A DNA stretch of 64,000 bases, from assembly GCA_016432265.1 (NCBI GenBank), contig CP066681.1:1080342-1144341 (forward strand). Reading direction: 5' to 3'. The stretch comes from Micavibrio aeruginosavorus. GTDB lineage: Bacteria > Pseudomonadota > Alphaproteobacteria > Micavibrionales > Micavibrionaceae. Both the position numbers and the translations under genes were made by a program. Within the stretch, counting starts at the first letter, position 1. Each line of letters starts with the position of its first letter. The notes under the pieces were generated by a model. That model searched no databases, was not told the origin of the DNA, and saw only the letters and a program-made list of their open reading frames with translations. Shown here in pieces: positions 58,090-63,878 of this stretch.

Positions 58090-59721
58090 TTAGGCCGGCT
58101 GATTGTGGAGATAGCGCGCCACGTTGGGATAATGCGTGGCGATAAAGAGGTCTTTTTCCATCGCGGCCTTGACGCCCAGACGATCGGTTACGCGGTCGAA
58201 TTTTTCTTTGTCCATCAAGCCCAGCAGATAAAGATTGTCGGCCAGCATTTGACAGATACGGTTGATTTTCTTCTCTTCTTCAGTAATCAACTGCCGCGCG
58301 CGGCGCTCAATTTTTTCCATGTTTTCCGGCGTGGCGTCTGTGATGTCGGCCGATGGAAATTCCAGGAACTCGTCCTCGTTGCGCCATGACATGCGCGGCG
58401 AGATGATGAAAATGTTGTCTTCGCCGATCAGGTTGGCGGCGGCCATATTCGCCGTTGTGTTGGCATAAGCCTTGGCTTCCTCGAGAATGCGTTCGTTGCC
58501 GATTTCATTGTTCTCGGCATAGTGGTCGAACAATTCGTCGTCGTCTATGTCGTCGGTTACGTATTCGCCCGTACCCAGCGTCACGGAAATGACATCGGCA
58601 TCTTCAGGCTTATGGCGGATGATGTCGGAAATGACGAAGATCGAAGTGTGCAAAGTGGCCTTGTCCGCGGCGATCACGCCGCTTTCCGTGCGGTGAGGCG
58701 GATAAGCTAGCAGATTGGCCGATGTGGCCATTGCCGCGTCCCAGACCTTCATGTCATGCGGGAAAGTCGTAGCCGGCGCATTCATACCGGTATCGAACAG
58801 GTTTGTCTTGCGGGCGTAGAAGGGCAGGAATGTCATGCGGCGCGTGTCGAACGCGGCAAAATAAACCGAGCCGATGCATTCACTGATGCGGGCGTCACCC
58901 ATGGCTTCCTGAAAGATCGTGCGGCGCATGTCCGGGTCGTGCATGCGGCTTTCCCGTGGCGCCCAATGCCGCTTTACCATGTCCATGCTGGCGATCGCCG
59001 CGCGCTTAAACAACGTTGTCAGTTCGCCGTGCTTGGATGTGCTGCGCTTGGTGATCAGTCCGCCGATGCGCGCGGTGAGTTCCAGTGTGGTGGACGAAGG
59101 CTCGTAGGCAAGCAACTTCTTTTTGCTGTCGCCGGAATCGGGAAGGCCCAGCCTGCCGCATATCTTCAAGGCGGCCTGCGTGTCGGCCCGCGTCAGCCAT
59201 CGTTTGGTTGATTTGTCACGCAGCGTATACACCAAAGGGGCCTTTTCCTGCGGCAGTTCCACCAGCAGCGCATCGCAATGCTTCTTGATGGAATCGATGA
59301 ACATCTGGTCGGCCTTGACCTTGGCCGGGTCAATCATGCGCTCGGCGATATTGATCGCGTTGGCGGCAAACATCTTGTATAAACGGTTGGGTTTCTCCGG
59401 AAACAGGATGGGGCAGTCCTCAACATAGCGGCGATCCAGTTGTTCGCACGAGTATTTAGGAAGGTGCGGATCGACCGGGTGGGGGATGCTGATCCCCGCG
59501 ACCAGAGGCCCTGACGTGGAGGCGCCTTCCTTGACTTGAAAGGCAATCCCAAGCGGTGTTTCGATTTTCTTTTCGATGTCGGCACCGACCAGAATGGGGA
59601 TGCGGCCCAGTACGCCACCCCCTTGACCGTACAAGTGAAATATTGCGCGGCGCTTGAGCAAGACGGTATGCTTTGCCCTGCTTTCAATCGTGTCGGTATC
59701 AGACGCATGGCCTTGCGTCAT
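58090..59721 (-). CDS. Patatin-like protein with altered nucleophile elbow
   Basis: 543 residues. The N-terminal GQGGGVLGRIP (residues 32-42) corresponds to the GGGxxG oxyanion loop. The expected GxSxG nucleophile motif reads GASTS at 66-70, with the second Gly replaced by Ser. The dyad Asp region is AADKATLHTS (D353) where the neighbour has DGC. The stretch ATSANLLAYPPHR and the C-terminal helix (TPENMEKIERRARQL) align with the protein at 59879, so the two are tandem paralogues. Ser68 and an Asp are present, but DG is changed to DK, so activity may be altered or absent. No signal peptide; a cytosolic or injected lipase is possible. Confidence 0.7.
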   Translation of the reverse strand: MTQGHASDTDTIESRAKHTVLLKRRAIFHLYGQGGGVLGRIPILVGADIEKKIETPLGIAFQVKEGASTSGPLVAGISIPHPVDPHLPKYSCEQLDRRYVEDCPILFPEKPNRLYKMFAANAINIAERMIDPAKVKADQMFIDSIKKHCDALLVELPQEKAPLVYTLRDKSTKRWLTRADTQAALKICGRLGLPDSGDSKKKLLAYEPSSTTLELTARIGGLITKRSTSKHGELTTLFKRAAIASMDMVKRHWAPRESRMHDPDMRRTIFQEAMGDARISECIGSVYFAAFDTRRMTFLPFYARKTNLFDTGMNAPATTFPHDMKVWDAAMATSANLLAYPPHRTESGVIAADKATLHTSIFVISDIIRHKPEDADVISVTLGTGEYVTDDIDDDELFDHYAENNEIGNERILEEAKAYANTTANMAAANLIGEDNIFIISPRMSWRNEDEFLEFPSADITDATPENMEKIERRARQLITEEEKKINRICQMLADNLYLLGLMDKEKFDRVTDRLGVKAAMEKDLFIATHYPNVARYLHNQPA

Positions 59722-59878: not shown

Positions 59879-61150
59879 CTATTCCACGGTTTCACGCTCG
59901 CCGAAAAAGGTGAAGTATTTCTTCATCCGGTCGCCAATGCTGCTTTGGTGGCGTTCTTCTTCGCGGCGGTCGCGGTTGCTCGTCAGGATGTGGCAGATGT
60001 CATCCAGTTGGCGGCTGTTTTCTTCCATCAGGGCTTCGGCGAAAAGGCGCATCCTCTCAAGATTTTCGGGGCTGGCGTCGTCGATTTGCGGGCTGGGAGT
60101 ATATGCGCGACCGCTTTCCGGCAGGATGGAGCCGTTGAAGACGTGAAGATCCTTGCCCAGATCGTCGACGAAACTTTCCATCAGCGCGGATTCGGAGGCG
60201 TGGAAAAAGATATTGATCAGCGGCAGATCATTGACCGGGTCGACGACGCCCAGCGCGCCGTAGCTGTTCCAGTCGTCTTTCTTGATAGCTTTGTTCGTGT
60301 ATCCCGTGCCGAGCACCAGCATGACCAGTTTGTTATGTGGCGGAATCATCTTGCGGATAGTGCCTAGATAACTGATGCAGGGGTTATCGAAGACGCAGCC
60401 GTCAATACCGGTGTAGGAAATCTCCCTTTTCCCCGGGTAGCGCACTTTGAAGTGGTGGCAAGGGAAATATGTTGGCGCGGCGCAACTGGCCATGACGGCG
60501 TCATAAAGGCTGACATCCGGCGTACGCAGACTGGGGCCGTTCTGGGGCATATGCCGGATGTTGCTCATCCAGAGCGCGTGGCCGCCGTAATCATCCAGTG
60601 AAGCCCTGCCGCGCGCGACCCAGTCATGGCCGCCGCCTTCCGGCGTTTCGAGAATCCTGAGCTGTTCGCCGTCGATATTATATGTCGGGACGACAAGCGT
60701 TCGTAATGAATCTGCCAGGCGGGCATCGCCATAGAGCGCCTTGAGGGCGCGCCCGAGGTTGGACGGGTCATAATGGCCATGGCGGAACAGCCAATTCAAC
60801 TGATTGAGTTTAAGTGTGCGGTTGTTGAAGTCGTGCACGATCCCGCGGAATTCGCGGAAACGATCGGAAGGAAAAATCTTGTGACCTTCGCGTTCGTAGA
60901 ACTTCACCATGTGCCGGGCGCGGAAGCGGGGGCTGCTGGTATGCTCGGGATGACGCAGGGTCATGGCGGCATTCAAGATAGCGCCTGTCGAGGGGCCGGT
61001 GAATATGTCGACCATATCCGCCATCCGCAGTCCGGTCTTGTCTTCTATGCGGCTCATGATGTGAGCGGGGATCAGCCCGCGCATACCCCCGCCATATGTA
61101 AATAGGGCGATAGTGGTTTTTTGCGGGACGCTGTCGCTAGTGTTACTCAT
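59879..61150 (-). CDS. Patatin-like phospholipase
   Basis: 423 residues. The oxyanion loop is YGGGMRGLIP (GGGMRG at 20-25), the nucleophile elbow FTGPSTGAIL (GPSTG, 52-56, Ser54), and the Asp dyad is in GIDGCVFDNP (D250). All three are intact, so acyl-hydrolase activity on phospholipids or similar is likely. The C-terminal region ends in a charged helix (ASPENLERMRLFAEALMEEN). The gene precedes its paralogue at 58090 by about 157 bases on the same strand. Patatins of this type appear in bacterial effectors and in defence systems, but no sensor or partner is seen here. A candidate small RNA lies upstream. Confidence 0.87.
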   Translation of the reverse strand: MSNTSDSVPQKTTIALFTYGGGMRGLIPAHIMSRIEDKTGLRMADMVDIFTGPSTGAILNAAMTLRHPEHTSSPRFRARHMVKFYEREGHKIFPSDRFREFRGIVHDFNNRTLKLNQLNWLFRHGHYDPSNLGRALKALYGDARLADSLRTLVVPTYNIDGEQLRILETPEGGGHDWVARGRASLDDYGGHALWMSNIRHMPQNGPSLRTPDVSLYDAVMASCAAPTYFPCHHFKVRYPGKREISYTGIDGCVFDNPCISYLGTIRKMIPPHNKLVMLVLGTGYTNKAIKKDDWNSYGALGVVDPVNDLPLINIFFHASESALMESFVDDLGKDLHVFNGSILPESGRAYTPSPQIDDASPENLERMRLFAEALMEENSRQLDDICHILTSNRDRREEERHQSSIGDRMKKYFTFFGERETVE

Positions 61151-61253: not shown

Positions 61254-61360
61254 CAAAAAAAAACCGGGTCTTTATGACCCGGCGAGTTGAACAGGGAGGT
61301 TTCACGTCTGGGAGACGTAGGACCCCGAAGGATCCCATCGACATCGGAATGTCGATGGCC
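61254..61360 (-). ncRNA. Candidate small RNA with anti-Shine-Dalgarno segments
   Basis: Read on the minus strand from about 61360: CCATCGACAT-TCCG-ATGTCGATGG (10-bp stem), GGATCC-TTCG-GGGTCC-type stem with a UUCG-like loop, ACGTCT-CCC-AGACGT (6-bp stem, loop CCC), then a single-stranded AAACCTCCCTG, then a terminator CCGGGTC-ATAAA-GACCCGG followed by nine T residues (61255-61263). CCUCCC in the free segment is complementary to Shine-Dalgarno sequences, and CCC is also presented in the third loop. Alphaproteobacterial sRNAs of the cuckoo/alpha-r14 kind show such CCUCC loops. Length about 105 nt. Expression is not shown by sequence. Confidence 0.65.
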
Positions 61361-61361
61361 G

Positions 61362-61368
61362 CTTTATA
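61362..61368 (-). promoter_or_regulatory. Candidate -10 box of the small RNA
   Basis: On the minus strand TATATAA lies immediately before the first hairpin, at the distance expected for a start near 61360. A -35 is not clear; GGCACT stands some 15 bases upstream. Confidence 0.4.
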
Positions 61369-61562
61369 TACTGGGACGACTCCGCAGTGCCAGAAGTAAT
61401 TATGCATGACAGGCCTGCGGTAAATGCATATCTAGGTTGCGGTGCAGAAAATGACGATTTCTTTAGTTAAATCAGAGCATTGTCTTTTTGGGCCGGGTTC
61501 CGCGGAAAAATAACAGCGCAGTAAACTGCAACTTAAACGCTATTTTATTTTCAGCTCAATTA

Positions 61563-62453
61563 TTAGAACTCGGTTATGCCGACATGTTTCAATAGAAAAT
61601 CACGGAATATGGCAAGTCTTTGTGAATGGCGGCGCTCTTCCGGATAGACAAAATACATATCGACACTGACCGGTTGCAGATTCGGCAGGACGCTTTCCAG
61701 CGAAGCGTCCTCATTTGCCATAAAATCAGGCAAGAGTCCGAGCCCTGCGCCGCCTTCCACGGCCTGGCGAATGGCATAAAGCGAATTCATCATGATCAGG
61801 TTGTTATGCTCTTGCGGATCGACCCCGGCAACGCGGAATAGCCAGTTCGAGTCCATAAACGGTTGCGGCGCGTTTTCCGGATAGCCGATCAGGACATGGT
61901 CGCGCAGATCCTTGGGTTCGCCCGGTCGTCCATGTTTGTCGAAGTAAGCCTTGCTGCCGAAGATGTGGAACTGGATGGTTGCGAGGTGCCGCTGGATCAA
62001 ATCGGGTTGTTCAGGCTTATAGAGGCGGATGGCGGCATCGGCTTCGCGCATCGACAGATTGAGCACCCTGTCGTCCATCAGCAGGGTGAGTTGAATATCA
62101 GGGTGCTGGCTGCGTAAATCGGCCAGACGCGGTGCCAGCCAACTGGCGCCGATGAATTCCGTGGTTGTGATGCGGAGCGGCCCTTCAGGCAATTGGCGTG
62201 AATCGATCAACTGCCCTTCGATCATCGCCAGCTTGCCGAAAATATCCTTGGCCGCCTTTTGCAATAGCTCGCCTTGCTCGGTGAGCAACAGTCCCCGCGC
62301 ATGACGGTGGAAAAGGGTCACCCCGAGAGATTCCTCAAGCGTGCTGATTTGCCTGGATATTGCCGATTGGCTGAGATTCAGGGCTTCACCGGCATGAGTA
62401 AAGCTGCCGGCTTCGGCGACAGCATGAAAGATACGCAGCTTGTCCCAGTCCAT
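61563..62453 (-). CDS. LysR family transcriptional regulator
   Basis: 296 residues. The N-terminal winged helix-turn-helix (AVAEAGSFTHAGEALNLSQS, AISRQISTLEESLG) is followed by the effector-binding domain with LRITTTEFIGASWLAPRLADL. Target genes are unknown. It is last in an apparent operon trxB - VOC - lysR with three-base gaps. That suggests control of its own operon or of a redox gene, but no operator can be read. Family length normal. Confidence 0.92.
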   Translation of the reverse strand: MDWDKLRIFHAVAEAGSFTHAGEALNLSQSAISRQISTLEESLGVTLFHRHARGLLLTEQGELLQKAAKDIFGKLAMIEGQLIDSRQLPEGPLRITTTEFIGASWLAPRLADLRSQHPDIQLTLLMDDRVLNLSMREADAAIRLYKPEQPDLIQRHLATIQFHIFGSKAYFDKHGRPGEPKDLRDHVLIGYPENAPQPFMDSNWLFRVAGVDPQEHNNLIMMNSLYAIRQAVEGGAGLGLLPDFMANEDASLESVLPNLQPVSVDMYFVYPEERRHSQRLAIFRDFLLKHVGITEF

Positions 62454-62456
62454 GTT

Positions 62457-62891
62457 CTATGCTCCGTTCCACTGAAACTGGCCTTCGGGGCCGAGTGGCG
62501 AGAAAGGATTATAAGCTATTTCCCACAACTGACCATCGGGATCTGCAAAATAACCGGAATAACCGCCCCAATGAGTCTGGGCGGCTGGCTTTACAATGCG
62601 TCCGCCAGCTTTCCTGGCAAGGTCTAATGTTTTATCGACTTCCGCGGCGCTGCGCACATTATGGGCAAGAGTAATAGCTGAATACCCGCTGCGCTCCATA
62701 GGCACATTCGCGTCTGCTGCAAGCATTTCCCACGGATGAAGGGCAAGGGCCATGCCTGGCAAGTCGTAGCAAACAATATCAGCCTCCCGTTCTTTACCAG
62801 AGGCCGCCCGCCAGCCAAGCGCATCATAAAAGGAACGGGCGCGCTTCATGTCCTTTACGCCAATCGTAATTAGGCTGACTCGCGGTTCCAT
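62457..62891 (-). CDS. VOC (glyoxalase/bleomycin-resistance fold) protein
   Basis: 144 residues. The VOC pattern is MEPRVSLITIGVKDMKRARSFYDALGW, AITLAHNVRSAAEVD and YSGYFADPDGQLWEIAYNPF with the conserved Asp-Pro-Asp-Gly. Members bind metal and act as lyases, dioxygenases or drug-binding proteins; a general assignment only. It starts 3 bases after the trxB stop and ends 3 bases before lysR, so translation is coupled or nearly so. Confidence 0.87.
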   Translation of the reverse strand: MEPRVSLITIGVKDMKRARSFYDALGWRAASGKEREADIVCYDLPGMALALHPWEMLAADANVPMERSGYSAITLAHNVRSAAEVDKTLDLARKAGGRIVKPAAQTHWGGYSGYFADPDGQLWEIAYNPFSPLGPEGQFQWNGA

Positions 62892-62894
62892 GAA

Positions 62895-63878
62895 CTACTC
62901 GGCGGCAGCCGCATGCGCGGCTTCCTCGGCGGCGATAAAGCGGTCGGCTTCCAGTGCTGCCATGCAACCCATGCCGGCGGCTGTCACAGCCTGACGGTAA
63001 ACCTTGTCCTTAACGTCACCGGCGGCAAAGACGCCGGGAATATTCGTTGCCGTTGAATCGGGCGCCGTCGTGATGTAGCCGTGTTCGTCCATCGCGATCT
63101 TGCCTTTGAATATCTCGGTAGCCGGATCGTGACCGATGGCGATGAAAACACCATGCGCGTTCAATGTTGAGGTTTCGCCGGTCTTGACGTTCTTCAGCTT
63201 TATGCCGGTGACGCCGGGATTGTCATGTTCTTGCGGGTTGCCCAATATCTCCTCGACAGCGCTGTCCCAGATCACATTGATTTTCGGATTGCTGAACAGC
63301 CTGTCTTGCGCGATCTTTTCCGCCTTTAGCGAGTCGCGGCGGTGGATCAACGTCACTTTGCTGCAGAAGTTGGTCAGGAACAACGCTTCTTCGACGGCGC
63401 TGTTGCCGCCGCCGATCACGGCGACCTCTTTGCCGCGGTAGAAAAAGCCGTCGCAGGTAGCGCAGGCTGAAACTCCGAAGCCCATAAAGGATTTTTCTTC
63501 CGGCAGGCCCAGCCAGCGCGCTTTGGCGCCGGTGCATATGATCACTGTATCAGCGATATATAGAGCGCCTGAATCACCTTTGCAGACAAAGGGGCGCTTG
63601 CTGAAATCGACTTCGGTAATGTAGTCGTAGACCATCTCCGTCCCGACATGCACGGCTTGCGCCTTCATTTGCTCCATCAGCCACGGCCCCTGAACCATCT
63701 CGGCGAACCCGGGGTAGTTCTCGACGTCTGTGGTGATGGTCAGTTGCCCCCCGGGTTGCAAACCCAGAACCTGGACGGGCTTCAGGTTGGCGCGGGCGGC
63801 ATAGATGGCTGCGGTGTAACCGGCGGGGCCTGAACCGATAATCAGGACTTTCGTCCGGATGTCTTTGTCCTTACTCAT
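62895..63878 (-). CDS. trxB: Thioredoxin-disulfide reductase
   Basis: 327 residues, FAD- and NADPH-dependent. FAD site GSGPAGYTAAIYAARANLKP, redox pair CATC in SACATCDGFFYRG, NADPH site GGGNSAVEEALFLTNFCS, and the C-terminal GVFAAGDVKDKVYRQAVTAA. It reduces thioredoxin in the cytosol. AAGGAAG precedes the ATG at 63878. It leads the operon with the VOC protein and the LysR regulator. Confidence 0.96.
   Translation of the reverse strand: MSKDKDIRTKVLIIGSGPAGYTAAIYAARANLKPVQVLGLQPGGQLTITTDVENYPGFAEMVQGPWLMEQMKAQAVHVGTEMVYDYITEVDFSKRPFVCKGDSGALYIADTVIICTGAKARWLGLPEEKSFMGFGVSACATCDGFFYRGKEVAVIGGGNSAVEEALFLTNFCSKVTLIHRRDSLKAEKIAQDRLFSNPKINVIWDSAVEEILGNPQEHDNPGVTGIKLKNVKTGETSTLNAHGVFIAIGHDPATEIFKGKIAMDEHGYITTAPDSTATNIPGVFAAGDVKDKVYRQAVTAAGMGCMAALEADRFIAAEEAAHAAAAE

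Follow-up and report, generated by a model that had tools for sequence, protein, structure and literature searches.

A small RNA gene downstream of an LsrB/VtlR orthologue in Micavibrio aeruginosavorus and its relatives across the Alphaproteobacteria

The locus and the parts of the gene

The window analyzed here, a stretch of 64,000 nucleotides of DNA from Micavibrio aeruginosavorus, contains a small RNA (sRNA) gene that we located by sequence inspection on the minus strand, at about 61358-61255 (~103-105 nt), between genes for a patatin-like phospholipase and a LysR-family regulator. The element comprises four hairpins, a TATATAA box and a U9 terminator, and its core can be written as ACGUCUCCCAGACGU-GAAACCUCCCUGUU-terminator. 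The parts of the gene and its 3' neighbor are the following.

61255..61358, minus strand: small RNA gene, from the predicted start to the end of the T tract, with the 5' end placed from the -10 box
61358-61335, minus strand: hairpin H1, CCATCGACAT-TCCG-ATGTCGATGG, a 10-bp stem with a TCCG loop (from the sequence; 5 of 7 scored pairs changed on both sides)
61335-61320, minus strand: hairpin H2, GGATCC-TTCG-GGGTCC (4 of 6 pairs changed on both sides)
61318-61304, minus strand: hairpin H3, ACGTC-TCCCA-GACGT, with the CUCCCA loop motif at 61314-61309 (nearly invariant across the class)
61290..61299, minus strand: single-stranded linker CCUCCCUGUU, an anti-Shine-Dalgarno segment (nearly invariant in 67 aligned members; the same string occurs in the SorX model)
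61255..61283, minus strand: intrinsic terminator GCCGGGTC-ATAAA-GACCCGGT, then T9 (terminator scan; covarying pairs)
59879-61150, minus strand: patatin-like phospholipase gene, 3' of the sRNA and on the same strand

An earlier sequence-only reading had described four hairpins, including one with a 10-bp stem, a TATATAA and a terminator with nine T residues, and all of these are present on the minus strand (terminator at 61283-61263, the nine T at 61263-61255). The TATATAA occupies 61370-61364, so that the promoter begins just beyond the range 61254-61368 to which that reading had assigned the RNA. It had also put C-rich motifs in exposed loops. This holds for CUCCCA, which is in the loop of H3 (as drawn, its first C closes the stem and UCCCA forms the loop), whereas CCUCCC, at 61299-61294, lies in the linker between H3 and the terminator and not in a loop; the linker letters in the window are GAAACCUCCCUGUUCAACUC.

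The patatin-like gene stays beside the sRNA, on the same strand, in most members of the order. After it comes a gene for a 543-aa protein (58090-59721, minus strand) that has no Pfam match.

Fold, covariation and distribution of the RNA

Measured against 200 dinucleotide shuffles, the fold energy has a z of -4.46 for 61254-61368 and of -4.71 for 61254-61358, and none of the 200 shuffles folds as well as the sRNA region. The minimum-energy fold of the single sequence pairs GGGGU (61326-61322) with ACCUC (61300-61296), which would mask the linker motif; H2, favored over this pairing by covariation in relatives, keeps the motif unpaired. In an alignment of 12 close members, 96.8% of cells are paired in the four-helix structure, and this value drops to 27-45% in a control in which the partner is slid by 1-3 columns. 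Covariation in relatives, which the earlier reading had named as a check, was found in the same alignment: 11 of 26 pairs are changed on both sides compared to 5.5 in shuffles, and none of 500 shuffles reaches as high a count.

The covariation is located in H1 and H2. Across 67 diverse members, the most conserved letters are those of H3 and the linker, both of which lie outside the terminator, and such near-invariance is expected if these letters pair with targets; by itself, the invariance of H3 is no evidence for base pairing inside this hairpin. These patterns also bear on a simpler explanation, that the region is just a strong terminator accompanied by chance hairpins and devoid of trans function. 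Weak matches to our covariance model are dominated by terminators (e.g., G000:C1:1395885), as this explanation would have it, but covarying helices in H1 and H2 and strong conservation outside the terminator argue against it, and this already disfavored reading seems to us hardly credible.

The sRNA was found by BLASTN in 38 of 58 relatives. Wider searches relied on a covariance model (R2) built from 67 members, whose E-values are rough and whose matches near 20-27 bits are to be disregarded; it replaced an earlier model (R1) with a poor consensus structure, in which the linker was paired with the terminator end. At E 0.01, R2 matches 130 of the 241 sampled alphaproteobacterial genomes, and the matches are strong (best E <1e-7) in roughly 110 of the 241. 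Strong matches within the class score 35-94 bits, compared to a maximum of 27.3 bits in control genomes from the same phylum outside the class. The Rfam model for SorX, which was built independently, detects many of the same loci across the class. The suggestion of an alphaproteobacterial sRNA with anti-Shine-Dalgarno segments, made from the letters alone, is thus supported by the conservation of the gene within the order and more widely in the class.

In its own genome the RNA scores 94.5 bits with R2 and is present as a single copy in the 2.46-Mb chromosome. Two secondary matches there were rejected, one at 413044 (18.7 bits) that has no CCUCCC and G000:C1:1395885 (24.8 bits), a mere terminator after another gene.

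The upstream LysR gene and the promoter region

Upstream of the sRNA, the window carries the following features.

61364..61370, minus strand: -10 box TATATAA (from the sequence; a TATA-type box is at the same place in most relatives)
61393-61388, minus strand: weak -35 element CTGGCA, with a spacer of 17 to the -10 box
61406..61418, minus strand: GCAGGCCTGTCAT, a near-match to the VtlR box GCAT-N3-TG-N3-T (one mismatch to the published box)
61416..61428, minus strand: predicted LysR-type recognition dyad TGCATTTACCGCA (T-N11-A), with 8 of 8 dyad letters and its center at about -65
61563..62453, minus strand: LsrB/VtlR orthologue of the LysR family, presumed activator of the RNA (Pfam HTH_1 and LysR_substrate; PDB 9HH1; tree)
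62457..62891, minus strand: glyoxalase-family gene between trxB and lsrB (Pfam)
62895..63878, minus strand: trxB, thioredoxin reductase, the upstream gene of the lsrB locus (Pfam Pyr_redox_2; trxB-lsrB order kept class-wide)

The best PDB match of the LysR protein is Agrobacterium tumefaciens LsrB (9HH1; PMC11975290), with 273 bits compared to 125 bits for the next entry. In a tree whose long outgroup branches leave the rooting unsure, 9HH1 clusters with proteins of Labrenzia, Faunimonas and Pleomorphomonas (100/100), within the trxB-linked LysR set of the class. Judged by its sequence, the window protein is an orthologue of LsrB/VtlR. It contains zero cysteines: C144, C236, C244 and C273 of A. 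tumefaciens LsrB are all replaced, and these four redox cysteines are absent in most of 136 aligned orthologues. A cysteine-based peroxide switch is therefore unlikely in the window LsrB. While LsrB has been stated to be unique to Rhizobiales (PMC11975290), the trxB-vtlR arrangement has been called well conserved in the class (PMC7486931); we found trxB-lsrB pairs in many orders of the class, which argues against the former statement and agrees with the latter.

Among 68 class loci picked from the model matches irrespective of lysR (the strongest ones and a selection of weaker ones), an LsrB orthologue in the same orientation lies upstream in 45, at a median distance of 217 nt, and the sRNA usually lies 130-490 nt downstream of this gene. 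The region in between often contains a dyad of the form TGCR-N5-YGCA. Within 120 nt upstream, it occurs in 26 of 37 order members and 24 of 42 members from other orders compared to 0.7-0.9 in shuffles, a count that is partly post hoc because the form was spotted in these sequences beforehand. The exact form of the box GCAT-N3-TG-N3-T, published for VtlR of Brucella and Agrobacterium (PMC7486931), is present over the same 120 nt in 12 of 37 order members and 11 of 42 others (shuffles 0.6-0.8), and it is often fused to the dyad, mostly at the dyad's downstream half. In most members with a clear -10 box, the dyad center lies 51-54 nt before this box; the spacing is constant and puts the dyad near -65 from the predicted start. 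The recognition site of LysR-type regulators is usually at about -65. Some relatives lack the dyad (family f2 and loci L025, L031, L040 and L041).

This arrangement allows two further explanations to be weighed. The sRNA could be independent of LsrB, with its own promoter and anti-ribosome-site activity, and have remained next to lsrB because conservation acts on the trxB-lsrB region as a whole. Consistent with this, 23 of the 68 class loci have no LsrB orthologue within 1.6 kb upstream (some merely have short flanks), relatives carry copies elsewhere in the genome, and RpoH-type control has been described for SorY and AbcR2 in other species (PMC5036791, PMC8844928). However, the dyad at about -65 and the published VtlR box occur far above chance and at a fixed spacing to the sRNA promoter, and we consider independence from LsrB unlikely. 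Alternatively, the region could be the 3' untranslated region (UTR) and terminator of the lsrB mRNA, perhaps processed into an sRNA like SorX. It lies on the same strand about 200 nt past the lsrB stop, SorX is cut from a 3' UTR in Rhodobacter sphaeroides (PMC6238624), and the window RNA shows weak similarity to SorX; against this, a -10 box and a LysR dyad stand between lsrB and the RNA with fixed spacing in most relatives, as for a separate promoter, which makes an origin from the lsrB transcript highly unlikely in our judgment.

Known RNA families and proposed action

The window gave no match to Rfam at gathering cut-offs. The alpha-r14 and cuckoo (CcsR) families, to which the sequence-only reading had pointed, found no backing in Rfam, as alpha-r14 (NfeR1) and CcsR/cuckoo RNAs are absent among the matches up to E 10. 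The best Rfam match of the window RNA is SorX of Rhodobacter (RF02784), with 30.5 bits (cut-off 46.6) and an E of 2.1e-5 in its own genome, a score that proves little alone because matches to this Rfam model at around 25 bits may consist of nothing but a terminator. Both RNAs have a ACCUCCCUGUU linker before a GC-rich terminator, but SorX derives from an OmpR-type gene, whose 3' UTR contains it, and not from the lsrB locus, whereas the window RNA follows a LysR regulator gene and is separated from it by a promoter-like site. G187 has a second SorX copy after an OmpR-type gene, as for true SorX. An OmpR-type gene also precedes SorX in L158.

SorY (RF02651) of Rhodobacter matches the window RNA with only 16.5 bits (cut-off 111). 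Like the window RNA, for which this is a prediction, it has its own promoter, and the two share CCUCCCUGUU and a terminator. Within the class, the SorY model scores highest (62.1 and 52.8 bits) in the Rhodobacterales-like genomes G075 and G187, at loci that immediately follow an LsrB orthologue and carry the same dyad. These loci thus occupy the same site as the window RNA, although the two copies are shorter and have no CUCCCA hairpin. MmgR/suhB (RF00519) reaches 20.4 bits (cut-off 41) and has the same plan of hairpin, CUCCCU linker and terminator, and it shares an Rfam clan with ar15; its gene neighbors differ from those of the window RNA.

The AbcR/ar15 model (RF02345, cut-off 40 bits) has no match in the window's own genome up to E 10, and its class-wide search, which returned no match anywhere, controls included, is uninformative. 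In a directed search of named loci, ar15 matches were obtained downstream of lsrB in Pleomorphomonas and Labrenzia, with 44.3, 35.8 and 29.6 bits, only the first of them above the cut-off, and TTGCATAGCAGATTTGCA-like sequence is found upstream of these sites. AbcR1 and AbcR2 of Rhizobiales (alpha-r15), for which the window RNA shows no sequence or covariance match, nevertheless resemble it in their position downstream of trxB-lsrB, in a CUCCCA (motif M1) in a hairpin loop (61314-61309 in the window), in a second C-rich segment between hairpins, in an LsrB/VtlR box at the promoter (a predicted near-match in the window) and in a Rho-independent terminator. They differ in that M1 is in the first hairpin and not the third, that M2 between the hairpins is GUUCCC where the window RNA has CCUCCCUGUU, and that they form a tandem pair, whereas the window-type RNA is usually present in one copy. 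By sequence, SorX and SorY are thus the nearest known RNAs, while gene position and logic point to AbcR. The window RNA is a real sRNA gene that position and logic place with AbcR, SorY and SorX, and no Rfam family formally includes it. One site, one regulator and one kind of RNA recur across the class.

AbcR carries CUCCCA (M1) in a hairpin loop together with a C-rich linker and blocks the ribosome sites of transporter mRNAs (PMC5461406). The window RNA likewise places CUCCCA in a loop and has CCUCCCUGUU as its linker, so that the simplest interpretation is that it acts in the same way. Expression of abcR1 is activated by LsrB/VtlR in Agrobacterium and Sinorhizobium (PMC7486931, PMC8844928), and SorY limits malate import while SorX regulates spermidine uptake (PMC5036791). 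We therefore think it probable that the window RNA is a trans-acting sRNA of the AbcR/SorY type, activated by LsrB and blocking ribosome sites through CUCCCA and CCUCCCU, with transcription, LsrB dependence, Hfq use and targets all being predictions. In the proposed mechanism, LsrB (VtlR) would most likely bind the predicted T-N11-A dyad at about -65 and would activate the weak sigma-70-type promoter of the sRNA. Both unpaired C-rich segments, CUCCCA in the H3 loop and the linker CCUCCCUGUU that precedes the terminator, would then pair with purine-rich ribosome-binding sites. This might block the translation of sets of mRNAs that, by analogy, would encode proteins for nutrient uptake. The earlier reading had put forward repression of many mRNAs under stress, which for the window RNA is a prediction.

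The target pattern AACAGGGAGG-N3-12-ATG occurs at 29 places in 58 genomes compared to 5 for the reversed pattern. This search of the 58 genomes with the linker seed yielded no consistent gene, and none recurred among short frames. The place in the window's own genome opens a 29-aa frame only, and two places are the other strand of the sRNA gene itself.

Common descent of AbcR, SorY and the window RNA is plausible. Whether AbcR in Rhizobiales, SorY in Rhodobacterales and the window RNA all stem from one ancestral sRNA under LsrB control in an early alphaproteobacterium seems to us evenly balanced; no sequence test run here joins AbcR to the other RNAs. If they do, the class would have inherited the LsrB-sRNA circuit from its ancestor, LsrB would, contrary to the published view, occur beyond Rhizobiales, and the redox cysteines of this protein would have been acquired later. 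Our results suggest that the LsrB/AbcR circuit for control of nutrient transport, familiar from plant symbionts and Brucella, has a much greater age and a much broader distribution than the literature indicates, and they bear on whether AbcR-type circuits arose with host association or came from a free-living ancestor. The family, widespread and below Rfam cut-offs, connects the separately studied AbcR (symbiosis, Brucella virulence) and SorY/SorX (photo-oxidative stress); among the papers searched, none names AbcR1 together with SorX.

Several members depart from the form seen in the window. Sneathiella has three tandem copies, one of them above the SorX cut-off, and two or three tandem copies are seen in L152 and, downstream of lsrB, in L097 (4042-4660), L099 (4045-4630), L149 (3027-3646) and L150 (3051-3337). 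A second, shorter RNA elsewhere in the genome, with a CUCCCUGUUCAACU segment and a terminator and without the CUCCCA hairpin, is found in L190 (reverse strand, near 1617), L191 (near 1529) and L192 (near 1074). In members from other orders (L048, L055, L058, L091, L108 and L112), a near-perfect palindrome like GATGTTGC-N-GCAACATC stands in place of H1, upstream of the core and near the predicted RNA start, and could form a hairpin at the 5' end or serve as a second operator.
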